This document shows, one piece after another, positions 5,836-20,786 of a DNA stretch of 64,000 nucleotides; position 1 is the stretch's first letter, and every line of letters starts with the position of its first letter. Both the position numbers and the translations under genes were made by a program. This stretch comes from Psychrobacillus sp. BL-248-WT-3 (GTDB lineage Bacteria > Bacillota > Bacilli > Bacillales_A > Planococcaceae). The stretch is taken from NCBI RefSeq assembly GCF_012843435.1, contig NZ_JABAFC010000006.1:62001-126000 (forward strand), read 5' to 3'. The notes below the pieces were generated by a model. It was not told where the DNA came from. It was given only the letters and a program-made list of their open reading frames with translations, and made no database searches.

Positions 5836-6801
5836 GTGAAACCAGTCATACTCGCTGAGAAGCCAAGTCAAGCGAAGGCATATGCAGACGCTTTTTCAGT
5901 AAAACGCCATGAAGGCTATATTGAAATTCTCCCCTCACCTATCTTTCCCGAAGGAGCTTTTATTACTTGGGGAATTGGGCATCTAGTAGAATTGAAGGAA
6001 CCTAAAGCATACGATCCTAAGTGGAATAGATGGTCACTCGCTAGCCTTCCGATATTACCTGAACGCTATGAATTTCAAGTAGCTAAAGGAAAAGCAAAGC
6101 AATTTACGATAGTGAAAAAACTCATCAAATCTACCGATACAGTCATTAATGCATGCGATGTTGACCGCGAAGGCTCTAATATCTTTTATAGTATTTATAA
6201 CCAAACAGGCGCTAGAGGGAAAACGATTAAACGTTTATGGATTAACTCACTAGAAGTAGATGAAGTTCGTAAAGGCTTTACTAACCTGCAGAACAATCAA
6301 AAGGACTTACTCATGTATGAAGAGGCAAAAGCTAGACAAATCAGTGATTGGCTTGTTGGTATGAATGCTTCTCGCCTATACTCCCTTTTATTAAAGGAAC
6401 AAGGCATACAAGACGTATTTCCCATAGGACGCGTTCAATCCCCTACACTATATTTGATTTATCAGCGTCATATGGAAATCGAGAACTTTGTTTCAGAGCC
6501 CTTTTATGAAATAGAAGCATTATTTACTGCAGAGCATGGAAGCTATAAGGGAAAAGCAAAAGCAAAAGAGCCTAAAAGGGAAATTATTCGAGCGCTTTTA
6601 GCTAAGCATGATATTCAGCCTAATTCGCCAGGTGTGATTACCTCTGTAGTAAAACAGGACAAGAGAATTCCACCGCCACAGCTACATTCATTATCGACAT
6701 TACAGGCTACAGCTAATAGATTGTGGAAAATCAGTCCAGCAGATGTGTTAAAAACGATGCAGGGACTATATGAAAAAAAGTTAGTCACTTATCCTCGGAC
6801 T
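5836..6801 (+). pseudogene. topB: topB (topoisomerase III), 5' fragment of interrupted gene
   Basis: The first 322 codons of a type IA topoisomerase: Toprim domain opening ILAEKPSQAKAYADAF, acidic DVDREG motif near residue 115-120, GRVQSPTL near 200, and the active-site segment LVTYPRT, whose Tyr319 would attack DNA. After codon 322 the frame enters foreign sequence and stops 18 codons later at 6858. The gene resumes at 19611 exactly in frame (YPRT joined to DSRHITPNEFAYIVG), so joining 6801 to 19611 restores a 713-residue protein of normal TopB length. The interruption removes the residues after the catalytic Tyr together with the C-terminal part, so the fragment should be inactive. Confidence 0.93.
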
Positions 6802-6831
6802 TTATCTAAAAAATATTACATGGACATAACT
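6800..6831 (+). repeat. Left terminal inverted repeat of the topB element
   Basis: CTTTATCTAAAAAA (6800-6813) and GGACATAACT (6822-6831) both recur in inverted orientation at the right end (19593-19606 and 19579-19588), with spacers of 8 and 4 bases. They look like the recombinase-binding arms of the element ends. Confidence 0.8.
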
Positions 6832-6858
6832 GAATGCTATACGAAGGTAACGAACTAA

Positions 6859-7293
6859 GGTATAAAAAAGGATGGGCATTATTCTCTGCTGGGCATAATG
6901 GAATAATATACAAATTCTGTTATGAAGGTAAGCAAGTTAGAAATCCTTGAATATAAAGGATTTTACAGTACGAGATTTTACCAACAAAAGCAAAAAACAT
7001 ACGCTAAGCAAATTTCGACATAAAGAAAGCCGAGTTTTCCTACGCTAAGGATGTCAATTTAGGAGTTATTTTGCATCTGTTTTAAGTACTATTTTGCACT
7101 ATAAGTAAATATAAAAACCCCAATTTCTCAACATTAAATTGAAAAAAGGGGATTTTAGTTATCCTAAAAAGCACGAGGTACTTTAAGTACAATCCTTCAC
7201 AATATCTTTTTACTACTTATGCATAAAAACCGATTTTATACTTTTGAGAAAACAGAGGTATGAGGGAACATATCAACGAAGGCATCACACCAC
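6859..7293. other. Left end of the element, non-coding
   Basis: No gene is visible in these 435 bases. They hold the outer end region with one clear recombinase-arm-like repeat just outside (6822) and, near 7115-7160, a possible terminator of the mph operon. Confidence 0.5.
7115..7160 (-). terminator. Possible terminator of the mph operon
   Basis: On the minus strand CCCC-TTTTTT-CAATTT pairs with AAATTG-GGG and is followed by TTTTTA. The hairpin has an internal bulge, and it lies about 135 bases after the mph stop codon. Confidence 0.4.
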
Positions 7294-8202
7294 TTACGAA
7301 CTTATCACTCCCAACGCTTCCTTTGCCATCTGTTCATATTCCTCGATGCCAGACACTAATGCAAACTCAGCGATTGAAACTGGATATGCTGCGTCAAGTT
7401 CGATAATATGCTCTTTCATCTTAGGCCAGTAATATCCACCAGCTTCTTTATAAGCAAAAATTAGGGCTTCTAACCCTTCTTCTCCAAAAGCTTTATAGTT
7501 GAAAACAAAGTCATTCGAAATATCTGTAACCTTAGCTTCAGTCCAGTCAATTAAACCAGTCACATTAGCATCTTCATCAATCATAGTATGTCCGGCATGT
7601 ACATCTCCATGAATCAGTCCAGTTTTCTTAGGCCACATATCATCATCATTCATCCATGCTTGCCATCTTTTCCATAGACTCTCACCCACACCAAACTTTG
7701 CTCTTACCGCCTCCATACGCTGCTTCATTGACATTCTTGCTTCTTCTGGTGTGTGCACTACTAGGTCAAGCTTCGCGGCTTTATCACTAGGTATGCTATG
7801 AAGTCCTGCTAACACTCTACCAAGAGACTTGTGAAACGATTCTGGAATATTGTTAATATCGATTTCCCAAACATAGTTGCCTATATTATGATCTATAGTT
7901 CCTGCTGGCACACCATCTAACTTCCTGTAAGCGATTAGCTCATCTGTGTAAATAATCCAGTTTGGTGATTGAAAATATTTGGGGTACTGATTCACCAAAT
8001 CTAATGCTTGTTTTTCTACCTTTGTTCTAGGCATCACATCTTCCCGCCTAGGCAATCTTAGAACCCACTCAGTTCCACTCTCATCTAGTGCAAAAACAAC
8101 TTGAAAATCCATCCCGGATTCATTAAACTGCATTGTTTCTTCCTTAAGAATAAGATTATGTTTTTTAGTTATTTCAATAACGTGTTTAGTATTTTTAGTC
8201 AT
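7294..8202 (-). CDS. mph: Macrolide 2'-phosphotransferase, Mph(B)-like
   Basis: A 302-residue antibiotic kinase that should phosphorylate the 2'-OH of the desosamine/mycaminose sugar of macrolides in the cytoplasm. Visible family marks: [10 protein letters not shown] near residue 50, the catalytic-loop [10 protein letters not shown] near residue 197-206 (the HGD Brenner motif), and the metal-binding [10 protein letters not shown] just after. From memory the whole sequence follows Mph(B) very closely, including [23 protein letters not shown] and the C-terminal [18 protein letters not shown]. The start at 8202 has AGGAG 8 bases upstream. It is the last gene of a TetR-hydrolase-mph operon inside the mobile element. 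Exact Mph subtype needs alignment. Confidence 0.9.
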
Positions 8203-8236
8203 TAAAATCACTCCTGTCTCAATTTTTATCTATCAA

Positions 8237-9076
8237 TTAGGAACTTACTGCATGCTTAGATATAGCATTAATAATTTCTTCCCAATCATTATAGTGTAGC
8301 TCATGCCCAGCACCATCTAGGGTAACTAATACAGCATTTGGTATAATTTTAGAAAGATAAGCTCCATGCTCATACGGTACAACAGGATCCTTTGTCCCGT
8401 GAATAACTTGAGTAGGAACATTAATTTCATGGGTTCTGGATAAATATGACCCCCAGCCTTTTACGTATTGATGGTTTTCCATACTCTGCAATTTAGTAGT
8501 TCTTTTAAAATCCTCCCCAGCTAATTTCCTTATTTTCTCTTCATTAAATGGATGCTTAGGTCCAGCAAGAACTTTACTCCTATCGATAACATACTCGATC
8601 ACTTTCTCTTTATCTTGCCAGTTGTCGATGCTAATCTTCTCAAAAGCTTCTGTTACTTTTCTATTCTTCTTAGGAAGACTAGTATCATAATTCGATGTCA
8701 TAACTAGTGAAATAGTAAGTACACTACTAGGGTGTTTAAGAGCCACTATCTGCGTAATAATTCCTCCCATAGACATACCAACTATGTGAGCCTTATCAAC
8801 CTTATAGGCATCTAGTACCTGAATTGCATCATCAGCCAAATCCTCAAAGGTATATTGTGGATGACCATATTCGTAAGTAATTGATTTACCTACATCTCTA
8901 TTGTCATAGCGTATAACATGAAATCCTTGATTGCTTAGTCTATTACAAAACTCTTCCTCCCACCAGATCATTGATGCAGTAGCCCCCATAATTAACAAGA
9001 TAGTTGGATTTCTAATATCTCCAAAACTCTCAGTACAGATATGAACATTATTAAAACGAATTATTTTTTCTGTCAT
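8237..9076 (-). CDS. Alpha/beta hydrolase, candidate macrolide esterase (EstT/EstX-like)
   Basis: A 279-residue single-domain alpha/beta hydrolase. The oxyanion strand and loop ILLIMGATASMIWWEEEFC (about 27-46), nucleophile elbow GMSMGG (Ser about 101), late Asp in HGTKDPVVPYEHG and His in GAGHELHYNDW form a complete catalytic triad. The IMGATASMIWW segment and overall length resemble EstX/EstT-type esterases and aclacinomycin methylesterases. EstT opens the lactone of 16-membered macrolides; placement between a TetR gene and an mph gene makes a macrolide esterase the best hypothesis. AGAGGTGA precedes the ATG, and only 34 bases separate it from mph. Substrate is inferred, not shown. Confidence 0.75.
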   Translation of the reverse strand: MTEKIIRFNNVHICTESFGDIRNPTILLIMGATASMIWWEEEFCNRLSNQGFHVIRYDNRDVGKSITYEYGHPQYTFEDLADDAIQVLDAYKVDKAHIVGMSMGGIITQIVALKHPSSVLTISLVMTSNYDTSLPKKNRKVTEAFEKISIDNWQDKEKVIEYVIDRSKVLAGPKHPFNEEKIRKLAGEDFKRTTKLQSMENHQYVKGWGSYLSRTHEINVPTQVIHGTKDPVVPYEHGAYLSKIIPNAVLVTLDGAGHELHYNDWEEIINAISKHAVSS

Positions 9077-9128
9077 GAATTATCACCTCTTTACTACTTT
9101 CATCTGATATTACATTACCTAGACCAAA

Positions 9129-9728
9129 TTAAGGCCGAGTAATTCGATTAGCAATAGCTTCGAATAATAACTCTCTAATCCTTTCATAATTGTATTGCTG
9201 TAACTCTTCCTTTTGAGAACCTATTAACCAAGCTGATCTTAAAACGCCAGCTATAACGCCTGGGTCTTCATCGATAATCTCCTTAGAGTCTTGGCGTGCC
9301 CTGATAAAGTCCGTAAGGGGGACGATGCTTCTAAGATTCTCTGAGCCAACATACTCAGGATTTAGCTTTCTAGATACGAGCTTGTACTCCTCAAGGTCGT
9401 AAACTAACCTTTGAGTTAAAATCTTATCTTCTAGTTCCAAAGACATCTCATTTAAGTATATCTTTATTGCTAATCGTATATCCTCAGCAGCTATAACCTT
9501 TGGCCATACCTGCTTTTCAATTTGCTCTCCCTCATGTGCTAACAATTCCATATATAGCATTTCTTTTGATTCGAAAAATGCATAAAAAGTACTCTTTGCA
9601 ATGCCAACGGATGAAGTTATATCCTCAAGAGAAGTACTCTTTAAACCCTTTTCAATGAAAAAACGATATGCTACTTCAAGTAATTTCTTTTTAATCCTTT
9701 CTTTTTCTAGTTGAGTGAATTTAGCCAT
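9129..9728 (-). CDS. TetR-family repressor of the mph-esterase operon
   Basis: A 199-residue TetR protein. The N-terminal helix-turn-helix is clear (GLKSTSLEDITSSVGIAKSTFYAFFESKEMLYMEL, about residues 22-56) and the C-terminal helical domain would bind the inducer. The start at 9728 is chosen over an upstream one at 9773 because AAAGGAG lies just before it and because the longer form would read through the operator. It is the first gene of the operon with the hydrolase and mph, and a perfect palindrome overlapping its promoter indicates autoregulation. By analogy with MphR(A), the inducer may be a macrolide. Confidence 0.85.
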   Translation of the reverse strand: MAKFTQLEKERIKKKLLEVAYRFFIEKGLKSTSLEDITSSVGIAKSTFYAFFESKEMLYMELLAHEGEQIEKQVWPKVIAAEDIRLAIKIYLNEMSLELEDKILTQRLVYDLEEYKLVSRKLNPEYVGSENLRSIVPLTDFIRARQDSKEIIDEDPGVIAGVLRSAWLIGSQKEELQQYNYERIRELLFEAIANRITRP

Positions 9729-9753
9729 CGCCCTGAATCTCCTTTTGTAAAAA

Positions 9754-9784
9754 CATAAAAACAAATATTTCATTTGTTTTTATG
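9754..9784. promoter_or_regulatory. TetR operator (perfect 13-bp inverted repeat)
   Basis: CATAAAAACAAAT (9754-9766) and ATTTGTTTTTATG (9772-9784) are perfect complements separated by ATTTC. The site sits between the TetR promoter and its ribosome site and overlaps the -10 box, as expected of an autorepressor. Confidence 0.75.
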
Positions 9785-9810
9785 TTAGCATGTTGTGCTT
9801 TGTAAATCAA
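9782..9810 (-). promoter_or_regulatory. Promoter of the TetR-hydrolase-mph operon
   Basis: On the minus strand TTGATT and TAACAT are separated by exactly 17 bases, and the -10 box touches the palindromic operator. Each box matches four of six consensus bases. Confidence 0.55.
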
Positions 9811-10303
9811 GTCCACTTAGTTTAGTATCTGTACGCAGATTGTGCAGGAATCAACGCCTTATGATTGTTATCCATATTGTTTACTCAACCACGTATCCAC
9901 TTATAATCATTCAAAATCCTAATTATATTTTTACAAAGCAGTATATCCATTCTAATCATTATAAAATTTTTTAACGTTATTATAACTGTAACCGTTGCTA
10001 AACCATCGCCTGTTTCCTCTCATTTTGATAAAAAACTGGTTTGTTCACAAATAACAGCTCTCTTGCCCGATTCTGGGATAACATGATAAACATTATTAAA
10101 ATATACTTACTTAGGGTATATGTCTACCATATGTGTTCCAAAACCCGTCCTTTTCTGAACACGCTTCTTTTTAATTCATAAGGGGCGTTTTTCACCGTTT
10201 AGAATGTAACAAAACTCCGTTCATTAATCTATGTTCATTAACCATGTATTTAATACCTTATGTTACAATGAAACAGAGGAAAAATGAGGAAAGAGTGATT
10301 TTG
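9811..10303. other. Non-coding stretch between cargo and recombination genes
   Basis: No gene is visible. Just before the resolvase, GTTCATTAA occurs twice (10219-10227 and 10233-10241) with a period of 14 bases, a possible site for the resolvase or another binding protein. The region could hold a res site, but no resolvase-type triple site is obvious by eye. Confidence 0.35.
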
Positions 10304-10855
10304 GTGTTAATTGGATATGCACGTGTGTCAACAGGGTTACAAAATTTGGATTTACAAACAGATGCGTTAACGCAACATGGATGTATGAAAACTTTTCACG
10401 ATAAAATGAGTGGGGCAAAAAAACAACGTCCCGGTTTAGAGGAAGCACTTCAGTATGCACGTGAGGGAGATACAATTGTCGTTTGGCGATTAGATCGCCT
10501 TGGGCGCAACATGCAGGACTTAATACAAATTGTAAATACTTTGAACGAACGGGGCGTGGGATTTCACAGTTTACAAGAAAACCTGACCATGGACAAAAGC
10601 AATGCAACGGGGCAATTAATGTTTCACCTGTTCGCAGCATTTGCGGAATTTGAACGTAATTTGATTGAGGAGCGCTCGGCTGCGGGACGAGCAGCTGCAA
10701 GAGCGTGTGGTCGTCTTGGTGGTCGACCCGAGAAGTTTGGAAAGAAAGATATTGAAATGATGAAAGCACTGATTGAGAGCGGTACACCGATTAAGGATGT
10801 TGCAGAAAAGTGGGGCGTGTCTCGAACGACAATATATCGTTATTTAGAAAAATAG
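10304..10855 (+). CDS. Serine recombinase, resolvase/invertase family
   Basis: A 183-residue small serine recombinase. IGYARVSTG carries the nucleophile Ser near residue 9, followed by DKMSGAKKQRPGLEEAL and WRLDRLGRNMQDL with the catalytic arginines, the E-helix AAFAEFERNLIEERSAAG, and a C-terminal helix-turn-helix IKDVAEKWGVSRTTIYRYL. It should resolve or invert DNA at short paired sites. The GTG at 10304 is chosen because family members start M-L-I-G-Y-A-R and GAGGAAA lies upstream; longer starts at 10295 or 10244 are possible. It is directly upstream of the tyrosine recombinase operon, 36 bases away, and may be an accessory resolution function. Confidence 0.88.
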   Translation: MLIGYARVSTGLQNLDLQTDALTQHGCMKTFHDKMSGAKKQRPGLEEALQYAREGDTIVVWRLDRLGRNMQDLIQIVNTLNERGVGFHSLQENLTMDKSNATGQLMFHLFAAFAEFERNLIEERSAAGRAAARACGRLGGRPEKFGKKDIEMMKALIESGTPIKDVAEKWGVSRTTIYRYLEK

Positions 10856-10891
10856 TAAATCGGAATTTTGATTTTCAAGGGTGGTTTATTG

Positions 10892-12148
10892 ATGGAACAA
10901 AATAAAAATGTTCTATATGTAAAGAACTTTAAAAAGAAATATAAGTTTGTAGTACGCTCCATATGGGGGCAATACGCAGCTAATTCAGATGGATCACCAA
11001 TTTCTAAACAATATGTGGTTCTTAAGATTCAAGATATTGAAACAAAATCCGAAGTAATTCATCCAATTACAGACTTTATCCTATCAAATTGGAAACACCT
11101 TTCCTTTAATACGATGAAAGCATCAGCTTTTACAGTGGCCATGTTTTTAAATTTCCTTATAGAAAATAAACAGTATTATGATTTGAAAAAATTAAGTCAG
11201 TTGGAACTTTTTCATGGGACTGCATTTTTAAATGAACTGACGTATAACAAAACGCCCAAGAAAACAGTAAAAAAACACGAAAGAATACTAATAAGACTTT
11301 TTAAATTTTTATCTGAAAAGGAAATAATAGATAAAAATAAATGTGAATTTAGAGAAAAGGTTGTAGCCAACCATTCAAATGCAGAAGTAGTAATGAAATC
11401 TCCATTTAAAGACGTTGAATACTACAACAATAGTTTAAGTTACTCAATCCATCAGTTACCCGATGAATATATTTTAAAGTTTTTGGAAGTAGCTTATCAA
11501 TTAAACAGTTGCATAGCTTTAGGAATTTACATGCAATTCTTTGGGGGTTTAAGAACGGGGGAAGTTTGCAATTTGAGGATAAAAGATGTCCAATTGCTTG
11601 GTTCATATGGGGAGGATGGTTTTATTTTAAATTTAAGTGAGGATCGACATCTAAGGGATGACCTTAATAATACAGCAGGATCTGATTATATAAAAAGTAA
11701 GAGATGGCAAATTGTTTTTGGTTTTAAAAACTGGTCAAGACTATTTTTTGAAAAGCATATGACAAGCCACCCTACAAAGCATGTTTCCGGTGATTCCCCC
11801 TTGTTTATTAATAGGGATGGATTAGGATTAACCGGTTCGAGTTATTATTACCATTTCAATAGAATAAGAGCAGCGTTTTTGAAAACATTGAGAGAGTCAA
11901 CTAATACAAAAGATAGATTAAATGCTATTACGCTGGAAGGTAGCAAATGGTCCTCACATCTCGGCCGAGGGATTTTTTCTAATTTATTGGCAGAGGAAGC
12001 CGATAATTTATATGACGTTAGTTTTCCAAGGGGCGATAAAAGTTTTAGTTCAGTCAAGCCATATTTAGCAAACACAAGCCGAATAAAAAAGAAAATCGAA
12101 AATAAATTGTCTGAAATTTATGAAAGTAACCAACCCTTTTTGGATTAG
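10892..12148 (+). CDS. Tyrosine recombinase 1 (TnpA-like)
   Basis: A 418-residue phage-integrase-fold protein. The catalytic region shows Arg I in FFGGLRTGEVCNLRIKD (about residue 225), the HLGR box in SSHLGRGIFSNLLAEEA near residue 350, and a candidate nucleophile Tyr in SVKPYLANTSRI near residue 388. The N-terminal part is a core-binding domain. The start at 10892 has AAGGGTGG upstream. It is the first of three different tyrosine recombinase genes followed by a small coiled-coil gene, with gaps of 28 bases or overlaps, so the four are an operon. The setup is like Tn554 TnpA-TnpB-TnpC, where the recombinases act together at the element ends. Confidence 0.82.
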   Translation: MEQNKNVLYVKNFKKKYKFVVRSIWGQYAANSDGSPISKQYVVLKIQDIETKSEVIHPITDFILSNWKHLSFNTMKASAFTVAMFLNFLIENKQYYDLKKLSQLELFHGTAFLNELTYNKTPKKTVKKHERILIRLFKFLSEKEIIDKNKCEFREKVVANHSNAEVVMKSPFKDVEYYNNSLSYSIHQLPDEYILKFLEVAYQLNSCIALGIYMQFFGGLRTGEVCNLRIKDVQLLGSYGEDGFILNLSEDRHLRDDLNNTAGSDYIKSKRWQIVFGFKNWSRLFFEKHMTSHPTKHVSGDSPLFINRDGLGLTGSSYYYHFNRIRAAFLKTLRESTNTKDRLNAITLEGSKWSSHLGRGIFSNLLAEEADNLYDVSFPRGDKSFSSVKPYLANTSRIKKKIENKLSEIYESNQPFLD

Positions 12149-12176
12149 GTAACTTAATAAAATGAGGTGAACAAAT

Positions 12177-14933
12177 TTGGAAAAAGAGAAGCAGAATGAC
12201 GAACATTTAAATGTTCGTCAGACAGCAGAGCGTTTAGGAGTCAGTGCCAGTACTGTAATAAAATTGATAAGAAACGGAAGAATACCGAATGCATTTATTT
12301 TTTCAAGACGTTCAGGATATAGTATACCTTTATCAGATATTGTACTAATAGAACAGCAAATTAAAAAGGATGAAAAACAAAATGAAGACTATCTCTCTGT
12401 GTCGGAGATGGCCCTCATGCTTAATTGTAGTGATTCAAATATAAGATATGCAATTAGAAATGGAAAGATAAAAAAATATAGACTTCATAATAAAATGTAT
12501 TTGGTGCATATAAGTGACTTTGATGAGTACATTCATGAATACCTGAAAAAGAACCCGGATTGTTTAAATTTACAAGAAACCGCAAATCGCTTGAATGTTT
12601 CTAAGGCTACTATAGGAAATTATGTAAAGGATAATGTATTTCCAAATGTTTTCATAAGAAACCAAACTGAAGGGTTCTTAATACCTTTATCAGACATAGA
12701 AAGCTTCGAGTATACGATTAAAATTCCTGATGGCTTTATAGCAGTTAAAGAAATCGCAAAAATTTTAGATTGCCACCCGGAATCAGTTCGGGAACTAATA
12801 AGAAACGGCAAATTTAAAAATGTAAAGAGCCATTTGGGGAAAAGTTATATTGTATCGACCGATGAGGTTGAAAAATATTATGAATATAAAATAGATCAGA
12901 TAAAGGATTATCTAAACATTACTAATGCGGCAGAATTTCTGTCGTGTGATAAAGATACAATCCGAAGTTATTTAAAAAAGGGAGTCCTTAAAAATTACCT
13001 ATATCGAGAAAAAAGAGAGGGTTATTTAATACACAAGGATGATTTATTAAGATTAAAAGAAACGTTAATCATGCCAAACGGTTTTATGAAACCTGAAGAG
13101 GCTGCAAAAAAGTTAGGCATTGGTGTAGGACAGGTATTGAATTTAGCCCGAAATAAATTTGTGAACTCTTATAAAATCAAAAAAAATAACGGAGCGGAAA
13201 CTTGGATTGTGTCTGAAGAAGATGTCTTCATGTATAAAAAAGTGAAGGAGCAAAGATTCACTCCTGAAAATCCCGGTGAATATACCACTTTGGACGCAGT
13301 AAATAAATTTAAATTTGAAACGAAAGATCTTATTGTTCAAGTACCGGAATCAATGGGTAAAACATATGAGTTGTTTTCAAGCTACGCTAAAAGTAAATTA
13401 TCAAATAGTAATGCCAGAGCAGAGACTTTAAAGAAAAAAGTTGCCTACTATATTAAAACCCTAGAAATAATACTACAAATACTCGATAAAAACATATATG
13501 ATTTAACGGATGATGAAGTCGAGGATATTTTAAATGATCCTAACATTGTAGAGTATGTAAAACAGTATTTTATTGGCTTTACGCAATTTTGCTCAGAAAA
13601 TGTGGAGGGTTGCAAATTTAAAAATGACTATAAAACTAGCAGAGAAAATACCACTGAAACTGAAATTTATTCTTTACATACTTTTAAAGACTATTTTGAG
13701 CATGTTAAAGACATTGACTCCCATCTTGTCCATGCGATCAAGCTTAAGACATATGCACAAACCTGGTTGTACTTAATTATGCACTTAATGAACGCTTGGA
13801 GAAGTGGAGATATCATCTATGGCCTTCCAAAAATTGATTTTGATGAATTGGATATAAAAGATTTTACATATTTCACGAATCATAAACTAACCAGAGAGCA
13901 ATCCCAACTTATTATAAATCAGGTTCATATAAAAGTAGGAAAAATAAAATTTTCTAAAACCGGAGCACTTGGACAATTTTTATGTATTGATAGTTTGGCA
14001 ATCCCTTTTGCGACTGCTATCTCGATAGTGGAACTCCATCGAAGAAAAAGAGATGACCGATTATTGTTATCATCCATCAATTCAAATGGTGTTAACAAAA
14101 AGTTCTTCCAAAAAAATCGCTCTTTGGAGAACTTTGATAGTTTAAAAATGAACCGAACGCTTATAACCTATTTTTTTCATTATGTCTCCAAATCTGAAGG
14201 GGATGCCCATTTGTCTTATGAGGCCTCTCAAATATTACGAAGTCATATAAACGAAGACACAACTATGGTATATATTAAATTCTCAAATTCTGAGGGTTCA
14301 CTAGATGAAATATCGTTTAATATATGTGAACGTGGTCATTTCGGATGGGTCTTTAATTGTATGATTAATCTATTTTTTGATCAAGAACACCAAACAATCC
14401 AAGAAAGAACTAAAATGATCCAAGCTTTTCAAGAAAATTACACTGTTCCAGCAATAGAGACCTATGCATCTTTTCTATTAGCTGAACGAAATCAAAAAGA
14501 GTCTTTAGCGTTAAGGATAGCGAAAATGTCAAAAGAAGAGTTGAAAGACGTGATCACTATGATTTTTCGCGGAGAAATGCCTGCTAAAACGGAATTGGCA
14601 CAATGTCTTTCGCATCCTAATTGTCCATACCCTACAAGAAAAACTTGTATAGGTTGCGAGTACCTTGTACCCACCGAATATTTGCTTATATCAGCCACTG
14701 AACAAATTAAAACGACTATGTTAAATCTATACAACTCCAAAACGGCAAGGATAAGAGAAAGGGAATTGCATTTCTTAAAAAATCTATTTCTTTTGATTAA
14801 CCAGGCAATTGTTGAAAAAGGGAATGAGTATGTGGATACGTTTATTGATCGTAAGCAACTAAAAGAGCTATTTTTAGCATTAACTGAATATAAGGGGAGG
14901 GAAATAGTTATTGATACTCCAAAAAAAAATTAG
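12177..14933 (+). CDS. Tyrosine recombinase 2 with six N-terminal excisionase-like HTH repeats
   Basis: A 918-residue protein, far longer than usual tyrosine recombinases. Residues about 10-355 contain six tandem units of a MerR/excisionase-type helix-turn-helix, each about 55 residues (starting near 10, 71, 128, 184, 244 and 301; e.g. NVRQTAERLGVSASTVIKLI, NLQETANRLNVSKATIGNYV). The rest is recombinase: LMNAWRSGDIIYGLP carries Arg I near residue 540, and the catalytic C-terminal box is around RGHFGWVFNC near residue 718. A cysteine cluster CLSHPNCPYPTRKTCIGC (about 806-823) is a likely zinc site, as in TnpB of Tn554. The start is TTG at 12177 with GAGGTGA 6 bases upstream. Its end overlaps the next gene. 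Confidence 0.82.
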   Translation: MEKEKQNDEHLNVRQTAERLGVSASTVIKLIRNGRIPNAFIFSRRSGYSIPLSDIVLIEQQIKKDEKQNEDYLSVSEMALMLNCSDSNIRYAIRNGKIKKYRLHNKMYLVHISDFDEYIHEYLKKNPDCLNLQETANRLNVSKATIGNYVKDNVFPNVFIRNQTEGFLIPLSDIESFEYTIKIPDGFIAVKEIAKILDCHPESVRELIRNGKFKNVKSHLGKSYIVSTDEVEKYYEYKIDQIKDYLNITNAAEFLSCDKDTIRSYLKKGVLKNYLYREKREGYLIHKDDLLRLKETLIMPNGFMKPEEAAKKLGIGVGQVLNLARNKFVNSYKIKKNNGAETWIVSEEDVFMYKKVKEQRFTPENPGEYTTLDAVNKFKFETKDLIVQVPESMGKTYELFSSYAKSKLSNSNARAETLKKKVAYYIKTLEIILQILDKNIYDLTDDEVEDILNDPNIVEYVKQYFIGFTQFCSENVEGCKFKNDYKTSRENTTETEIYSLHTFKDYFEHVKDIDSHLVHAIKLKTYAQTWLYLIMHLMNAWRSGDIIYGLPKIDFDELDIKDFTYFTNHKLTREQSQLIINQVHIKVGKIKFSKTGALGQFLCIDSLAIPFATAISIVELHRRKRDDRLLLSSINSNGVNKKFFQKNRSLENFDSLKMNRTLITYFFHYVSKSEGDAHLSYEASQILRSHINEDTTMVYIKFSNSEGSLDEISFNICERGHFGWVFNCMINLFFDQEHQTIQERTKMIQAFQENYTVPAIETYASFLLAERNQKESLALRIAKMSKEELKDVITMIFRGEMPAKTELAQCLSHPNCPYPTRKTCIGCEYLVPTEYLLISATEQIKTTMLNLYNSKTARIRERELHFLKNLFLLINQAIVEKGNEYVDTFIDRKQLKELFLALTEYKGREIVIDTPKKN

Positions 14934-16563
14934 TGGTATTGGAAGTTCATTAAACGTTAGTATTACAGAGGCACATTCATTTGATAAGAACGATTTATCC
15001 AAATACAAGAAAATATTTAACGAGTACAAATTAAAGAAAGTAATTGAAGCAAGTTCATTTGAAGATATGGATTGGGCCATAGTTGACTCTATTGGAAATA
15101 AACGGAATCTATATTTTGATTTGGATATGTACCCAGATTTAAATAGCGCTTTGAAATGTTTTATTATAATCCAAATTTCCTCTAACTTTACAATTCAGCA
15201 TATAGCGTTCGTTCAATCAATCGCACGGAAGGCGATTATTTTAACCGAAGGATTTAAAGAGGACAAAGTAGATGAACTGGAGGAATATGCACAAAAGTTA
15301 GGATATTCCACTCGGTTTAGAATGATTATCTACACCAATAAATTTCTTCAATTTATAGAACACCGATACAAAAGTAAATATGATGTAAAGATATCTTCTT
15401 TACAAGAAATGTATAACAAGAATCGGGACTTACCTAATTATGAAGCAATCGTAGATTTTCATTATTTTATGGAAGAATTCGAAAGAAACAGTACATCTTT
15501 TGAAAAGGAAAAATTCTTTCCCATTATTTTATGGTGGAAAATTACGGGATTGATTCCTATGAGACCAAAAGAATTTTGTTTTTTGGATTACGATTGTACA
15601 CTTAAAAGAGACAGTAAATATTTCTTAAAAATTCCCAGATCAAAAAAGAAGGCACAGTCCTATAGCGAGTTGAATGTTGAAAATACGATTAGGATAAATA
15701 AGGAGATTTATGAAAGTATAGAGGAATATAAGGATACTATTCCAGTAAACCTGAAAGGAAAATTTTTATTTTCTTACGAAATTCAATCAAGGTTTTTAAC
15801 CTCCAAAAGATCCTACAAACGAAGGAAGGATGTTTTCCCTCCAGATATACTTCGTTCTCTGTTATCGTCTTTTTACAAGGAAATTGCGGGCTGGAAAACA
15901 AAGGACTTCATCAAAATTATAGACAATAACAAAGAAGTTAGAAACTACATAACCCCCGGGGATACAAGACACTTTTCTATGTGCAATTTAATGCTTCAGG
16001 GAATTAATCCCCTATCAATTGCAAAAATGGCCGGACATGTTCGATTAGGAACACAAAGGAACTATTGGGGGCATATAGAATATTTTGTTGAATCCTTTGT
16101 TTATATTCTAACATCCAAGTACAGGGTGAATCGTTTGGAAAAAGAACTAAGCGAGGGTATTTTTGGTGTAATGGATAAAGTAGATGAATCAAAAATCTTT
16201 TCCCCTCAGGATTTCGAGTTTGTTCAAGAGGTTGAACATGGCTTTTGTAGAAATGCTATCTTTCCGGAAAATTGTCCTGGAGAATGCAGATATTGTGAAC
16301 ATTATTTTTTTCACCCTCAGGATTTCGAGGAAGGGATTAAATGGTTGCAAGACGGGTCTGATTTGTTAGAACAGCAGCTAACCGTTGAATTGCGCAGCTT
16401 ATTAGACCTTTATAAAAACATGAAATTTAATTTAAATACAGAAAGCTATTCTATTATCGATCAGGAAAGTGCCCTGAGTAAAGCCAACTTATTGAACCGT
16501 TTGATAAAACAAAAAGCAATGTTAGATTCTCTTATACCTGAAACAAAAGGGGTGAAATTGTAA
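14911..16563 (+). CDS. Tyrosine recombinase 3 with cysteine-rich C-terminus
   Basis: A 550-residue tyrosine recombinase. Arg I lies in GLIPMRPKEFCFLDYD (about residue 218), and the full C-terminal box is visible in DTRHFSMCNLMLQGINPLSIAKMAGH followed by QRNYWGHIEYF, giving Arg, second His and nucleophile Tyr around residues 353-390. The C-terminus has CRNAIFPENCPGECRYCEHYF (about 447-467), a likely zinc-binding knuckle. The TTG start at 14911 has GGGGAGG 10 bases before it and overlaps the end of the 918-residue recombinase gene by 23 bases, implying coupled translation. It would act with the two upstream recombinases at the element ends. Confidence 0.83.
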   Translation: MILQKKISGIGSSLNVSITEAHSFDKNDLSKYKKIFNEYKLKKVIEASSFEDMDWAIVDSIGNKRNLYFDLDMYPDLNSALKCFIIIQISSNFTIQHIAFVQSIARKAIILTEGFKEDKVDELEEYAQKLGYSTRFRMIIYTNKFLQFIEHRYKSKYDVKISSLQEMYNKNRDLPNYEAIVDFHYFMEEFERNSTSFEKEKFFPIILWWKITGLIPMRPKEFCFLDYDCTLKRDSKYFLKIPRSKKKAQSYSELNVENTIRINKEIYESIEEYKDTIPVNLKGKFLFSYEIQSRFLTSKRSYKRRKDVFPPDILRSLLSSFYKEIAGWKTKDFIKIIDNNKEVRNYITPGDTRHFSMCNLMLQGINPLSIAKMAGHVRLGTQRNYWGHIEYFVESFVYILTSKYRVNRLEKELSEGIFGVMDKVDESKIFSPQDFEFVQEVEHGFCRNAIFPENCPGECRYCEHYFFHPQDFEEGIKWLQDGSDLLEQQLTVELRSLLDLYKNMKFNLNTESYSIIDQESALSKANLLNRLIKQKAMLDSLIPETKGVKL

Positions 16564-16566
16564 ATT

Positions 16567-17175
16567 ATGAGCCAAAGAAAACCTGGTAAACCAGAGGATT
16601 ACAGTGAAAAACAACTAAAAGAACTTTTATCCGTATATAGGAAAAAACATCAAGGGGTAATATCATTTTCTGGATTAGAAAAAGCAACTGGTATTAGCCG
16701 TAAAACATGGAAAAGACGGATGGGAGAAGTTATTGAAGAGCTGAATCAAATAGTTACCCTACAGAACGCTAGGATTGGTGATGACGAGTTACCATTACCA
16801 AATATAGATTTAATTTTTGATAAGTTTTCCAGTAACCCAAAAGGATTACGAGATGCTCTCTTTCATTTGAACGAAGTTATATTGAAAACTTATGAAGAAA
16901 ATATTAAATTGCAAGAAACTGTTGACGAAAAGAATAAGGTGGAAAAAGAGCTAAACATCAAAGTTAAAAAACTAGAAAAAGAAAAAAGTAAACTTTCAAA
17001 TGAGGTTGCTTATTATGAAAAAGTGATGATAGAAAGCATGAATCCTAGTATGCGAAAAAGGATTGGGATAAAAAGTAATTTGATAGAAATTAATAAACAT
17101 AATCAAGAATCGGCAGCATCTTTAGAAATAGAAGAGGAATTCCCAGAACTATTTGGTGACTTGGATAAAGAGTAA
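16567..17175 (+). CDS. Small coiled-coil accessory protein (TnpC-like)
   Basis: A 202-residue charged protein, last in the recombinase operon, starting 4 bases after the previous stop. It opens with a possible helix-turn-helix (ISFSGLEKATGISRKTWKRRM, about residues 31-51) and continues with a long heptad-like coiled coil (about 108-158, rich in Lys and Glu). Position, size class and coiled coil resemble TnpC of Tn554, which influences the efficiency and orientation of transposition, but sequence identity to TnpC is not something I can assert. It probably binds recombinase or DNA at the ends. Confidence 0.65.
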   Translation: MSQRKPGKPEDYSEKQLKELLSVYRKKHQGVISFSGLEKATGISRKTWKRRMGEVIEELNQIVTLQNARIGDDELPLPNIDLIFDKFSSNPKGLRDALFHLNEVILKTYEENIKLQETVDEKNKVEKELNIKVKKLEKEKSKLSNEVAYYEKVMIESMNPSMRKRIGIKSNLIEINKHNQESAASLEIEEEFPELFGDLDKE

Positions 17176-17176
17176 C

Positions 17177-17220
17177 TTCTGTGTGGCGGTTGATCTTAAT
17201 ACCTGCCACACAGAAATTTT
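17177..17220. terminator. Bidirectional terminator between recombinase operon and element topB
   Basis: TTCTGTGTGGC and GCCACACAGAA form a perfect 11-bp stem followed by ATTTTT. It separates two convergent units inside the element. Confidence 0.85.
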
Positions 17221-19394
17221 TACCTGTTAAATTTAAATTCTATTTTGTTCTCCTTTTCATTCCAGAGAAGGACCGCATCAAAACCTTTTTCACCTTTTTT
17301 AAAACCTTTAATTAAATTAGATTCTCCAGCTTTTAAAAGCTTTTTCATGTTTGCCTGTGAAATGGTTTTACCGAGTATTTTTTTTGAAATAGAAAACTTA
17401 CAGTTAGAAACTTTATAGTTTGTACATCCATAGAACTTTCCAAAGTCCAGTATATTACCACTACACATTCTACATTTTCCAAGTACTGTTTTCTCGTTCT
17501 TGTTATACCTTTTATTTTGGGGATTAGAACCAATCTTCTCAATTTGGATATTCTCGAAAGACCAATGAACTTTTTGCTCTTTGGCATCTACCATTAACTT
17601 TTGCGATAATTTTTTTACCTGTTCTAGAAAGTTTATTGGTGAAGCTTTCCCTTCACCAATTTCCGATAGTCTTTGTTCCCATTTACCTGTCATACCTGGA
17701 GAGGCTAGAATACTTTCACCTAACGCTTCTATCAGTAGTAATCCTTTAGGGTTTGCAAATACTTGGTTTTTACTGACTTCAATATAATTTCGGTCCTTTA
17801 AAAGGTTAATAATACCGGCCCTGGTTGCCTCTGTTCCTAGTCCTTCAGTTTTAGCTAAAACTTTTTCTAACTCTGTATCATCCAAATGCTTTCCAGCTGT
17901 TTTCATTAAGGTAATTAAATTTCCTTCTGTGTATCTTTTAGGTGGCTGAGTTTCACCTTTTTTAAGATCGACCTTAGTTACCTGCCCCAATTCCCCCTCC
18001 TGTAAGCTAGGAAGGTTTTGCCCTTCGTCTGAATCTGAATTTTCCTTGGAATAATAAATGACTTTCCTCCAGCCTTCCTCAATTTGTTCTTTCCCTTTCG
18101 TAATGAACTCTGCCCGGTTGTCAACCAAGGAATGTATCGTTGTGTAATTAAAGATCGCATTGTTATAATGGGCAGCAATTACTTGCCGTACAATAAGATC
18201 ATATATCTTTCCCTCGTCCGAGGTTAATTTTGAAACATCAGGTATTTGTTCAGTTGGAATGATGGCATGGTGATCCGTTACTTTTTTTTCATTTACATAC
18301 CTTTTGTTATGAATAATTGAATCACAAGGAGGGGGCAAAAGATCCTCATATTGCTTAATTCTACTTAAATGATTTAAAATACTGGGAAGTCCTTTAGCTT
18401 CCTCGTTCGTTAAAAATTGCGAATCTGAACGTGGGTAAGAAACCACCCCTTTCAGATAAAGTTTTTGCAATACGTCTAGTGTTTTCTGTGGCGAGAACTT
18501 CAACGTTTTATTTGCGGTTGCTTGAAGAGCTGAAAGGTTAAACAGTAATGGTGGCTGATACTCTTTTCTTTCTTTTTTTATGTTCGTAATTCTTACATCT
18601 TTATTTTTACAAAAATGAGCAATGGCTATTCCCTGCTTCTCCTCTAAAACTCTTGTCACATTGTTCTTGTGCCATTTACCTGTTATTGTTTTACCGTTGA
18701 AGTTAAAATTTGCTTCCACTTCCCAAAAGGGTTCTGATTTAAAATTTGCAATTTCATGCTCTCTTTTGACAATTAATGCAAGAGTCGGGGTCTGAACCCG
18801 TCCAACAGAAAAGACATCTTTTAACCCTTTTTCTTTTAGTAGAATGGTATATATTCTCGATGAATTAATTCCTATTAACCAATCTGCACAAGACCGGCTT
18901 AATGCTTCATAATAGATGCTACGTGTTTCTTCTTCTGTAAGTAAATTAGAAAATCCTTTCTTTACCGCACCTTCCGTTAAGGAAGATATCCAAAGACGTT
19001 TCATAGGTTTATTTACACCACAAACCTTTATTATGTTACGAATGATTAACTCACCTTCTCGCCCTGCATCTCCACCAATGATAATTTCCTTAATATCTGT
19101 TCGCTTCAATAGATTCTTAATGATATTAAACTGTTTAATCTTTGTTTTTGTTACCTTATATTCAAATCTATCCGGAATGATTGGTAATGTATCTAAAGAC
19201 CATTTTTTCCAAGTTGGGTTATATTCTTCCGGAGGTTTTAATTCACAAAGGTGCCCTATCGCCCAAGTGATTAACGCCCCATTTGGAAAATGAGAATTAG
19301 GTTTGACTTCAAAATAACCTGTCTTTTTTATAAAGGAAAAGGGAGCTGCCAACTTAGCTGCCTGATCTGGTTTTTCTGCAATTACTATTTTCAT
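17220..19394 (-). CDS. topB: DNA topoisomerase III carried by the mobile element
   Basis: An intact 724-residue type IA topoisomerase. Visible: Toprim opening IVIAEKPDQAAKLAAPF, acidic GDAGREGELI near residue 115, GRVQTPTLAL, catalytic Tyr320 in VVSYPRSDSQFL, GLGTEATRAGIINLL, and a C-terminal Cys4 zinc-ribbon-like region CRMCSG..YGCTNYKVSNC. It relaxes or decatenates single-stranded-region DNA in the cytoplasm. The start at 19394 has AGAGGGG upstream. It is clearly homologous to, but well diverged from, the interrupted host topB. At the target position it reads CGTTCAGATTCG where the host reads CGGACTGATTCT, so it lacks the element's own insertion sequence. It probably supplies the lost host function. 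Confidence 0.93.
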   Translation of the reverse strand: MKIVIAEKPDQAAKLAAPFSFIKKTGYFEVKPNSHFPNGALITWAIGHLCELKPPEEYNPTWKKWSLDTLPIIPDRFEYKVTKTKIKQFNIIKNLLKRTDIKEIIIGGDAGREGELIIRNIIKVCGVNKPMKRLWISSLTEGAVKKGFSNLLTEEETRSIYYEALSRSCADWLIGINSSRIYTILLKEKGLKDVFSVGRVQTPTLALIVKREHEIANFKSEPFWEVEANFNFNGKTITGKWHKNNVTRVLEEKQGIAIAHFCKNKDVRITNIKKERKEYQPPLLFNLSALQATANKTLKFSPQKTLDVLQKLYLKGVVSYPRSDSQFLTNEEAKGLPSILNHLSRIKQYEDLLPPPCDSIIHNKRYVNEKKVTDHHAIIPTEQIPDVSKLTSDEGKIYDLIVRQVIAAHYNNAIFNYTTIHSLVDNRAEFITKGKEQIEEGWRKVIYYSKENSDSDEGQNLPSLQEGELGQVTKVDLKKGETQPPKRYTEGNLITLMKTAGKHLDDTELEKVLAKTEGLGTEATRAGIINLLKDRNYIEVSKNQVFANPKGLLLIEALGESILASPGMTGKWEQRLSEIGEGKASPINFLEQVKKLSQKLMVDAKEQKVHWSFENIQIEKIGSNPQNKRYNKNEKTVLGKCRMCSGNILDFGKFYGCTNYKVSNCKFSISKKILGKTISQANMKKLLKAGESNLIKGFKKGEKGFDAVLLWNEKENKIEFKFNR

Positions 19395-19610
19395 TATTTG
19401 TTCCCCTCTATTAATACTAATATACTGGCACAATAAGTTATAGTTTGTGGTATCAATAATAGATTAAACTAAAAGCCAACCTCTAGCATGTACAATAAAT
19501 ATGTCCACCTATCTTTATAGCATACTTTGCTGTTTACTTGTAGGTTAAGCGTTTCCAAACTTTGTTTATGTCCAATTTAGTTATGTCCATTCTTTTTTAG
19601 ATAAAGAACT
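19395..19610. other. Right end region of the element
   Basis: Non-coding. It holds three inverted copies of a GGACATA motif (ends at 19506, 19573 and 19588), the terminal inverted repeat and presumably the promoter of the element topB. Confidence 0.5.
19579..19606 (-). repeat. Right terminal inverted repeat of the topB element
   Basis: AGTTATGTCC (19579-19588) and TTTTTTAGATAAAG (19593-19606) are exact reverse complements of the two left-end blocks. A second TTATGTCC is at 19566-19573. Confidence 0.8.
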
Positions 19611-20786
19611 GATTCTCGTCACATTACTCCAAATGAGTTTGCCTATATCGTCGGACAAGTGGATGAGTACCAAAAACTAATCAATAAACCGTTCCCAATA
19701 GCCTCTCGCTCTCCAAAAAAACGTTATGTGGATAGCTCAAAGGTACAGGAGCATTATGCTATTATCCCAACTAAAAAGATTCCATCTCAATCTGTACTTG
19801 CCAGACTGTCACCGATAGAGAGAAATCTTTACGAGGAAATTATTCGTACGACGCTCGGGATGTTTCATACGGACTATCTTTATACAGAAACAAAGGTTAC
19901 CACTGAGGTAAACGGATTGCTATTCTTTACAACCGGCAAAACAGAGGTCGACAAAGGCTGGAAGGCTCTTTTTATTCAGTCATCTAATGAAAAGGAAAAA
20001 GAAGAACCAACGCTTCCTCCTTTAACCGAGCAGGAATCAGTAGCAAGTAAGATTGAAATTAAAGAAGGCAAGACAACTCCTCCAAAACCATATACAGAGG
20101 GTCAATTAATCGCAATGATGAAAACCTGCGGTAAGCTAATAGAAGATAAAGATGAAACGGAGATTTTAAAGGAAGTAGAAGGTCTAGGAACCGAGGCCAC
20201 GAGAAGTGGGATTATTGAAACCTTAAAAAGACATAACTATATAAAGGTAACCAAAAATATTGTTTCTATTACTGATAAAGGGCGTGTTCTTTGTCAGGCT
20301 ATTGAAGGAAACCTTCTCTCCAGCCCTTCTATGACTGCTAAATGGGAAAACTATCTACGGAAAATAGGAAATGGTGAAGGCTCTCAAGATCGTTTTCTTG
20401 GTAGCATAGCTAAGTTTATCTATAGCCTGATTAATGAAACACCTACCCAACTTAAAACCAAAAACATTACGATCAAGCTTCCTCCAAGAGAACCAAGTTC
20501 GAAATATGCAAAGTTTAAGCAGGAACCGATTGCTCCATGCCCTAAATGTGGACAAGGATCCATTGTAGCACGTAAAAATTTTTACGGCTGTACCAATTAT
20601 AAAAATGGGTGTACTCAAACATTTAATGGATTTTTCTTAAAGAAAAAAATTACTCCCAGTCAAATCAAGCTGCTTTGTACAAAAGGAATAACAAACACTA
20701 TCAAGGGGTTTGAAGCTGAAAATGGTCAAAAGTTTGATGCAAAGCTTGCTCTAGAAGAAGGCAAAGTAAAACTAGAGTTTAAATAA
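19611..20786 (+). pseudogene. topB: topB (topoisomerase III), 3' fragment of interrupted gene
   Basis: The remaining 391 codons of the host gene, resuming in frame at DSRHITPNEFAYIVGQVDE. It keeps EHYAIIPT, the PPKPYTEGQLIAMMKTCG segment, GLGTEATRSGIIETL and a C-terminal zinc-ribbon-like CPKCGQ..YGCTNYKNGC. It has no native start; an internal ATG at 19659 has only a weak upstream site. Without the Toprim domain and the catalytic Tyr it cannot act as a topoisomerase. Precise excision of 12,809 bases would regenerate the intact gene. Confidence 0.92.

Follow-up and report, generated by a model that had tools for sequence, protein, structure and literature searches.

A tripartite-recombinase element that cuts topB at its catalytic motif carries a complete topB, and many relatives carry copies of the genes they cut

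Introduction

How can a mobile element afford to land in the catalytic motif of a conserved housekeeping gene? The question is raised by a stretch of 64,000 nucleotides from Psychrobacillus sp. BL-248-WT-3 (GCF_012843435.1, contig NZ_JABAFC010000006.1, positions 62,001 to 126,000; hereafter the window), in which a topoisomerase III gene (topB) is cut by an insert that carries a complete topB of its own. Some integrative elements limit the damage at a conserved site by restoring just the severed end of a gene, which is rebuilt in frame where element and host DNA join; the window element instead carries a whole separate gene.

Elements of related kinds have been described. Tn552-II, a Tn554-related element of Staphylococcus aureus, has two different 7-bp att cores, with an 'att-brought-in' that arrives through a circle, and among its genes is a target-gene homologue, tgl, for which the authors suggest a possible rescue of disrupted target genes (PMC12486829, where a paper on the related Tn553 is cited as reference 22). 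In the passages of PMC10214605 drawn on here, strand-biased circularizing integrative elements (SE) are reported only in Gammaproteobacteria and have an operon in which two tyrosine recombinase genes flank one for a large, non-catalytic protein and the gene for a small protein comes last (intA-tfp-intB-srap), imperfect inverted ends, a 6-bp footprint and no mobilization system. The parts of PMC5385486 used here describe GInt elements as having three integrase-like genes and a small protein, resistance cargo, 10-11-nt imperfect direct repeats and site-specific insertion at conserved genes, with sites that are either intergenic or at the end of a gene; one pair of GInt islands lies at a 'duplicated' ribonucleotide-reductase alpha-subunit gene.

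Results

Insertion site and empty site

The gene that is cut in the window is a second type of topB, for which we use the label beta, and an element of 12,803 bp (6802-19604) interrupts it at Y-P-R-T|D (Table 1). An earlier note on this DNA had read the host gene as split after codon 322, with parts that rejoin in frame (YPRT + DSRH), and both the open reading frames and an empty site bear this out. The same-species genome G011 has an uninterrupted orthologue (locus L065), to which the two flanks are 99.36% (1101 bp) and 99.30% (1290 bp) identical and at which they meet exactly at the site. Because the gene is uninterrupted in G011 and the flanks match up to the site, the insertion of a mobile element into the beta-type topB is confirmed as genuine.

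The element ends in a perfect 12-bp inverted repeat (TTATCTAAAAAA, 6802-6813 and 19593-19604). Two of the seven differences between the left flank and G011 lie inside the 6-bp core, and parsimony suggests that the core that was brought in lies on the border opposite to that of the SE rule (brought-in core far from intA). If the left end is taken as attL, core polarity in the window is the reverse of the rule reported for SEs and for Tn552-II; REG-type elements such as G080 have the native core on the RecA side, matching the SE rule.

Table 1. Positions, within the window, of the insertion site and of the genes carried by the element
Feature	Position	Strand	Remarks
5' part of host beta-type topB	5836..6801	+	322 codons, GTG start, from ORF and families; ends L-V-T-Y-P-R-T
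Left border core CGGACT (codes R-T)	6796..6801		unlike AGAACT of the empty site
Left terminal inverted repeat TTATCTAAAAAA, then subterminal motif TGGACATAA	6802..6813		
Mph(B)-like macrolide 2'-phosphotransferase, cargo	7294..8211	-	NCBIfam NF000242, 649.9 bits, cut-off 615
Alpha/beta-fold macrolide esterase, cargo	8237..9076	-	NF052610, 425.9 bits, cut-off 420
TetR-type regulator, cargo	9129..9773	-	PF00440
Serine resolvase/invertase, cargo	10244..10855	+	PF00239 and PF02796
RecA, tyrosine recombinase	10868..12148	+	conserved R229, H364, R367, Y399 (alignment, 11 rows)
RecB, large protein	12177..14933	+	N-terminal repeated HTH_17/excisionase domains; C-terminal part conserved
RecC, tyrosine recombinase	14911..16563	+	conserved R218, R353, H376, Y385 (alignment, 7 rows)
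CC, 202-aa protein, last in operon	16567..17175	+	TnpC/GinD/Srap position
Complete cargo topB, YPRSDS at active site	17220..19433	-	ATG at 19394
Right terminal inverted repeat TTTTTTAGATAA	19593..19604		
Right border core AGAACT	19605..19610		same as the empty site
3' part of host beta-type topB	19611..20786	+	D-S-R-H-I-T onward to stop

Genes of the element

We coined the labels RecA, RecB and RecC for this analysis, and RecA here is distinct from host recA. RecA matched XerA/Int structures at E values of 0.0009-0.0055 and gave no match in a Pfam search, and RecC scored 25.7 bits against PF00589, slightly below the cut-off of 27.1, and matched the phrog_1 integrase family, with no relative found in a PDB profile search. 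In the C-terminal part of RecB, R542 and other residues are conserved and a clear catalytic tyrosine is absent; its PDB profile search returned a repeat-protein match only. CC follows RecC in many relatives and had no match in family searches. Two tyrosine recombinases and a small gene in one operon, site-specific insertion, the lack of a full target duplication and a short core that differs between borders are features that the element shares with the broad Tn554/SE/GInt-like class. The gene order is that of the SE operon as given in the passages of PMC10214605 drawn on here, including a large protein that in the window has R542 but no clear tyrosine; a tblastn search (E<=1e-5) with RecA and RecC against plasmid pAQU1, an SE bearer according to that source, gave no match. 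No relaxase or transfer gene of a conjugation module, as an ICE would have, was found among the nine element ORFs scanned. A search for sigma-70 promoters was uninformative (41 sites, against 52.7 expected from shuffles).

Counted from TTG, the cargo topB has 737 aa; it is full length (PRK07726, 771.5 bits, cut-off 597) and oriented opposite to the host topB. It reads CGT TCA GAT TCG where the host gene has the target site, which confirms the earlier statement that the insert has a full topB with different DNA at the matching place. Immunity to self-insertion through such recoding, which the earlier note also proposed, is possible on sequence grounds, and the mobile topB clade differs from the beta type at 4/5 target motifs (SS/AS after YPRT, GRVL, METCGK, SIGTPATR). 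The proposal is nevertheless not supported, because sibling elements sit in topB genes that code for YPRS, the same residues as in the window cargo copy (L086 with border CGTTCT, G265 with border AGATCG), and because the cargo copies in G230 and G173 retain the DREG arm residues of their own target site.

Related elements and their targets

Among 20 split-topB loci, 14 have a complete topB within or adjoining the element, two lack one and four are cut off. Five insertion sites occur within topB, all in conserved motifs, and in B. massiliglaciei two elements interrupt a single topB, and each of them has placed a full topB of its own after the 5' part. Of 20 loci where the named target is another gene, 10 likewise have a full homologue of that gene; the genes re-supplied there are thyA, a Y-family polymerase, DNA ligase, the BCP peroxiredoxin, YwbE, YfbR and an integrase-like gene, and operon partners are brought too (thyA comes together with folA, and the Y-family polymerase with yolD). 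For insertions in comGA, DUF72 (two) and rtcB, no target copy was found within 45-56 kb. Often the target copy sits outside the recombinase operon, following the host 5' fragment and reading in its direction.

Several target names were given by eye from translations (comGA, katE, SDR, yolD, the integrase-like gene and aspartate kinase; also the polymerase of L094, the ligase of L099, DUF72 in L101 and G263b, YfbR in L109 and BCP in L092). The target in G283 was ruled out as FBPase, since Pfam gives RtcB. Further split topB pieces (G188, G073 (L176), G221 (L182), G280 C46 and C67, G265 C1 and others) fall outside the 20, a count limited to loci that were followed up and had an operon in view alongside.

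These counts support the earlier claim that a whole substitute gene is carried, and the empty site, ends, cores and relatives together support the claim that a mobile element uses a conserved active-site stretch as its attachment site. Three expectations of the earlier note fared less uniformly. That the split should not occur without an element topB fails in G264 and G272, each with a split topB and a genome that lacks an intact one (the G264 assembly is missing the topB 5' part, and G272 has broken recombinase genes). That copies of the element should keep to the same gene agrees with the near relatives (RecC about 45% or more), all at topB YPRT wherever the target is visible, and fails for distant relatives, which insert into other genes. 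As to the expectation that the element topB should not occur only as a random passenger, a window-type topB without recombinases is also present in another genus.

Recombinase and topB trees

In the recombinase tree, clades mostly track target sites. The RecC tree has 49 rows, two of them repeating others (L039 and G080 are one locus); rows below 400 aa (L035, L095, L096) were excluded, the trimmed G265_1 (380 aa) was kept, and L116, L088 and G287b were not entered. The YPRT clade has six rows (100/98; inner five 100/100) and the REG clade ten (100/99), the latter from nine loci with the target seen in seven, inferred in one and unseen in one. A Y-polymerase clade has four rows, with the target seen in three, and small clades of two rows each belong to BCP, YfbR and MMKT. 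Clade and target disagree in the ligase clade, which includes the rtcB insertion of G283, and in DUF72, which is reached from two separate clades. In the topB tree the host genes stand apart from a single clade (100/100) that unites seven cargo topBs, whose elements between them use five different target sites.

We ran a background control on 39 oriented loci. ORFs adjoining the recombinases had a downstream homologue in 12/39 loci, and 10 of these 12 were target copies, against 6/167 for more distant ORFs, where one of the six was a true target (G277). Loci with the copy on the RecA side or the target not beside RecA were excluded (the window, G248, L035, L085, L086, G265 and others). Near matches in G011 (tandem-repeat ORF) and G285 (68-aa piece) were not read as target copies; copies in G286, G287, L092 and L109 (weak, 28%) were added by hand beyond the control.

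Host copies and selection

Elsewhere in the genome that holds the window, contig C28 has an intact canonical topB (732 aa) and contig C23 a topA-like gene, and matches to two topBs plus topA were found in all 19 genomes of the genus. Because the canonical topB and topA remain, a need of this host for the element topB is not supported, and neither is the earlier suggestion that the element spares this host harm. The beta-topB of G004 carries an insert as well.

In two other hosts the copy on the element is the only intact one found: thyA in Metabacillus malikii (G289), in whose genome no thyX was found, and topB in Lysinibacillus alkalisoli (G080). It is plausible from gene content that these hosts depend on the element copy. 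The pN/pS of cargo topBs, 0.13-0.24 (0.13-0.21 among the copies of the window, G248 and G054), suggests purifying selection on them.

Discussion

We consider it very probable that the window contains a site-specific tripartite-recombinase element whose topB replaces the gene it breaks, and that its family uses this break-and-replace strategy. Mobilisation would depend on the RecA-RecB-RecC operon and a small accessory protein, as in Tn554, SE and GInt elements, and on recognition of the conserved topB sequence that flanks a 6-bp core, which itself varies. Borders, cores and empty site are observed; judging from its kin, the element would insert by way of a circular form bearing the core of the site it had left, which is why two different 6-bp cores would be left at the borders. 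Lineages may specialise on one conserved motif of a conserved gene, many of them bringing a complete diverged copy, and the element topB would be a substitute for the broken host topB. Copies behind a host 5' fragment could be driven by the host promoter; the window copy faces the other way and would therefore need a promoter of its own. Such a copy would make insertion less costly, and a host with no other intact copy might come to depend on the element.

The spare topB in the window host, the window-type topB without recombinases in another genus and the topB-like proteins encoded in at least 5000 plasmid records could all suggest that topB is an ordinary passenger of plasmids and ICEs whose meeting with a topB target is coincidental. 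We think this very unlikely, given that the match between cargo and target recurs with thyA and folA, the Y-polymerase and yolD, DNA ligase, BCP, YwbE and YfbR, that downstream homologues are rare for host ORFs at a greater distance from the recombinases, and that one cargo topB clade accompanies recombinases whose targets are five different places in topB. It is highly improbable that the cargo enzyme instead aids transposition by nicking or decatenating its circular intermediate: circles are the proposed route of movement for related elements (PMC12486829 and the passages of PMC10214605 drawn on here), and topoisomerases could help resolve them, but relatives at other genes for which a copy was found carry copies of those genes, with no topB in the stretches read, and copies often lie outside the recombinase operon.

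An explanation by which the element hits a dispensable paralogue and copies are kept for dosage, drug-target by-pass or phage defence is unlikely, although the topoisomerase genes matched across the genus, the insertions in comGA, DUF72 and rtcB without a copy, and the ability of folA copies to by-pass antifolates all fit it. It accounts poorly for G289 and G080, for thyA, which is indispensable unless thymidine is added, and for the low pN/pS of cargo topBs. An assembly chimera is scarcely conceivable; the genome is a draft of 91 contigs, and a 9.3-kb contig encoding proteins identical to those of the element is filed under another genus (a MAG), but the borders are precise, with inverted ends, and the same architecture recurs in G248 and G054, both single-contig genomes.

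For the break-and-replace reading one precedent was found. A literature search that covered few subscription papers and no preprints showed, among the results listed, no topB-targeted elements and no general strategy of carrying target-gene copies, the sole precedent being Tn552-II (PMC12486829), which resembles the topB element in its differing att cores and its homologue of the target gene. Tn552-II is one element with one kind of small target gene and three named tnp genes; the elements described here comprise many lineages, cut catalytic motifs of large genes such as topB and thyA, bring operon partners and, in two hosts, supply the sole intact copy that was found. A target-gene copy is not mentioned for SE in the passages of PMC10214605 drawn on here. 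The window element resembles GInt in its three recombinase-type genes and small protein, its resistance cargo and its conserved-gene site, and 6-bp cores are seen at its borders and those of its relatives; target replacement is not described in the parts of PMC5385486 used here.

We favour, with less assurance, the broader view that a large class of elements in Bacillota lives by breaking and replacing genes, that separate recombinase lineages have each come to cut one catalytic motif, that tolerance is followed by dependence, that substitutes are traded and that core enzymes of some bacteria are now element-borne. If so, one mobile topB clade would serve five insertion sites and be passed between elements, and repeated cycles could swap a host core enzyme such as thymidylate synthase or topoisomerase III for an element-borne version. 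The window element carries two macrolide-resistance-type genes and is therefore relevant to the spread of resistance, and the target copies offer a handle for locating element borders. To the question raised by this locus the finding offers an answer: a catalytic motif, being best conserved, is the most reliable landing site, and it may be affordable when the element brings the gene along. This would constitute a testable addiction mechanism without a toxin and a route by which foreign versions may replace core enzymes.

The insertion and its contents

The mobile insertion splitting topB that the earlier note described is real, as seen from its borders and from an empty site in G011, a genome of the same species. 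The uninterrupted orthologue there (locus L065) aligns with the left flank at 99.36% over 1101 bp and with the right flank at 99.30% over 1290 bp, and the two matches meet at the insertion site. At its outer ends the insert has a 12-bp inverted repeat without mismatches (TTATCTAAAAAA), with TGGACATAA motifs directly inside it on either side. The border hexamer, i.e. the last six host bases, is CGGACT on the left and AGAACT on the right, and AGAACT at the empty site. Two of the seven left-flank differences from G011 fall in this hexamer, which fits a core carried in from a previous site, and by parsimony the foreign core would be the left one. Because CGGACT encodes R-T in frame, that previous site was probably another topB cut at the YPRT motif.

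From left to right the insert carries genes for an Mph(B)-like phosphotransferase, a macrolide esterase, TetR and a serine resolvase, then an operon encoding RecA (426 aa; our name, not the host recA product), RecB (918 aa), RecC (550 aa) and CC (202 aa), and lastly, on the strand opposite to the operon, a complete topB. RecA keeps R..HxxR..Y in an alignment of 11 rows and weakly matches XerA/Int structures (E 0.0009 to 0.0055). RecC keeps R218, R353, H376 and Y385 in an alignment of 7 rows; its Pfam integrase score is just under the cut-off and a PDB search gave no match. In RecB, excisionase-type HTH domains are repeated, and a clear catalytic tyrosine is lacking.

Over 2.4 kb the mph(B)-esterase-TetR module shares 86.9% identity with E. 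coli plasmids, and it shows 82% identity to an Exiguobacterium plasmid; a similar module in genome G215 (L052; 80-89% protein identity) adjoins an intact topB and a distantly related recombinase trio. Six complete and two partial proteins, from mph to CC, encoded on a contig (L083, DVLR01000243.1, 9,283 bp) of a MAG assigned to Candidatus Merdenecus are 100% identical to those of the element, which points to very recent transfer or else to misbinning of the contig.

Coordinates of features in the window and in compared genomes (G, genome; L, fetched locus; C, contig)
Feature	Sequence	Position
Host topB 5' part, 322 codons, ending ...LVTYPRT	window	5836-6801
Insert, 12,803 bp	window	6802-19604
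mph(B)-esterase-TetR module	window	7294-9727
Host topB 3' part, first residues DSRHIT	window	19611-20786
Interrupted beta-type topB	G004 C2 (L070/L073)	185853-188807
Recombinase trio and 649-bp array	G011 L047	15683-18568
Full topB of REG element	G265 C16	343571-345706
Full topB of YPRT element	G265 C16	392531-394675
YfbR-type cargo copy	G277 L133	3979-5181

The broken gene in its host

Matches to the split gene (beta-type topB, our label), to canonical topB and to a topA-like gene occur in all 19 genus genomes. The beta-type gene is whole in 16, the exceptions being the window genome (split by the element), G004 (an interruption of ~0.8 kb) and G013 (stops). The G004 interruption lies around residues 171-182, where a 1019-aa open frame is reported; is it an intein or similar? 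Since the window genome retains intact canonical topB (732 aa) and topA, the broken gene is a second topoisomerase III and rescue is not obviously needed. The rescue proposed in the earlier note is thus not borne out for this host, nor did its idea of immunity by recoding of the element topB find support.

Elements that break a gene and carry its copy

Split topB genes with a recombinase operon were found at 20 loci, and at 14 of them a complete topB is part of the element or adjoins the 5' part of the host gene. The G282 assembly spreads the two gene parts and the operon with topB over three contigs, so that we infer their link; the G174 5' parts, and one border in each of G262, G263 and G266, are on another contig. 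No topB copy was seen at two loci: G264, whose assembly lacks the 5' part as well, and G272, where the recombinase genes are also broken. The remaining four loci run into the end of a contig or of the fetched stretch; G279, G281 and G280 each have an intact topB elsewhere in the assembly, on another contig.

The clearest case is Bacillus massiliglaciei (G265, contig C16), in which a single topB is cut by two elements in the order residues 4-107, REG element, residues 106-338, YPRT element, residues 317-718. All fragments and both element topBs share one orientation, and the element copies begin 3.0 kb (REG) and 0.4 kb (YPRT) behind the respective 5' parts. In G173 (C425), G230 (C1) and G281 (C3) two topB 5' fragments lie near each other, sharing a contig with one 3' fragment in G173 and G230. 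This arrangement points to insertions at one site, either in tandem or one after another.

Genes cut by elements, by presence of a copy (e, name assigned by eye from translations, not by family search, as also for yolD and aspartate kinase in the text; in the third column, 45-56 kb past RecA were read where marked + and 6-16 kb at other non-topB loci)
Target	Copy of cut gene	No copy seen	Cut by contig or fetch end
topB, YPRT	window, G248, G054, G262/L085, G263/L086, G265b	G264/L087, G272/L096	
topB, TEATR	G266/L089		
topB, REG	G230, G173, G080/L039/L116, G265a, G282/L112		G279/L104, L105, G281/L111
topB, MMKT	G166		G280
topB, GRVQ	G174		
thyA	G289		
Y-family polymerase	G267, G268	L094 (e)	
BCP peroxiredoxin	L092 (e), G287		
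DNA ligase	L097 (cut at PKIDG motif)	L099 (e)	
YwbE/DUF2196	G286		
YfbR-like	G277, L109 (e; weak, 28%)		
Integrase-like (e)	G174 C39 (93% identical)		
DUF72		G036+, G263b+ (e), L101 (e)	
rtcB		G283+	
comGA (e)		G054b+	
katE (e)		L103	
rarA		L108	
SDR (e)		L119	

Another named target is cut at 20 further loci; a full homologue of that target is present at 10, and no copy was seen at 10. Elements also copy partner genes: yolD accompanies the polymerase in G268 (42%), and folA accompanies thyA in G289 (56%). In the YfbR-type copy of G277 two HD domains are fused.

Of 39 oriented loci, 12 had a downstream homologue of an ORF lying no more than 600 bp from RecA, compared with 6 of 167 control ORFs (100 aa or longer) at greater distance. 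Target copies account for ten of the 12, whereas G011 and G285 are not read as such, and a true target is also among the six (G277); hand reading added four loci with copies (G286, G287, L092, L109).

In Metabacillus malikii (G289, L120) thyA matched nothing but two broken halves and the copy on the element; thyX was found in neither of two genomes searched, the control search being positive in 6 of 14 known genomes. In Lysinibacillus alkalisoli (G080) the element topB is the only intact topB found. Sole-copy status in both means absence of others from the assemblies.

Distribution and origin

RecC matches occur in 2 of 19 genus and 20 of 261 family genomes (own genome included in each), and a scan of a species-genome collection with the 7-row RecC profile gave 38 loci. 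In the RecC tree (49 rows, 47 different) target sites mostly track clades, although hosts are mixed: YPRT (6 rows, 100/98; inner five 100/100), with a TEATR row as sister (100/99); REG (10 rows, 100/99; 9 loci, target seen in 7); Y-polymerase (4 rows, target seen in 3); and BCP, YfbR and MMKT (2 each). There are exceptions: besides two rows whose target is not recognised, the ligase clade includes G283, an insertion in rtcB, and insertions in DUF72 come from two clades. From these placements, elements in at least four separate parts of the tree target topB.

Among more distant relatives, a recombinase trio in G011 adjoins a tandem array of 649-bp units, each encoding the same lipoprotein-like start. 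An Enterococcus faecalis plasmid carries RecA/RecC relatives flanked by genes for streptogramin and glycopeptide resistance, and a 5.1-kb Campylobacter jejuni plasmid carries a RecA relative (L193 and NZ_CP029055.1).

In the topB tree (53 rows) a single clade (100/100) unites seven cargo topBs whose elements have five different target sites; it is distant from sampled host topBs, its exact position being unsure owing to long branches. The window copy clusters with those of G248 and G054. Close kin of this copy (E<=1e-180) are present in 24 of the 261 family genomes, its own included. In four genomes of one genus these kin are neighbours of the same aspartate-kinase gene, and the nearest 1.5 kb hold no recombinase, so that the window-type cargo was probably captured from such a gene. 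Between cargo pairs pN/pS is 0.13 to 0.24, with synonymous change near saturation in several.

Relation to known elements

Operon layout and footprints fit the Tn554/SE/GInt class. A tblastn search with RecA and RecC (E<=1e-5) found no match on pAQU1, for which an SE is reported, and the element is therefore not classed as an SE. REG-type elements such as that of G080 have the native core on the RecA side and a foreign core on the far side (V-D vs native A-G), the polarity described for SEs. SEs and Tn552-II are reported to move through a core-carrying circle (PMC10214605 and PMC12486829, respectively), and by analogy our element would move in the same way. A literature search found no general account of elements copying their target genes; PMC12486829 describes one element with a target-gene-like gene, for which its authors suggest rescue.

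We observed exact borders, short unlike cores, motif-level target choice and repeated gene copies, and the window element is one case of a wider habit of breaking a gene and replacing it. The element copy would rescue the broken function, and some hosts would depend on it.
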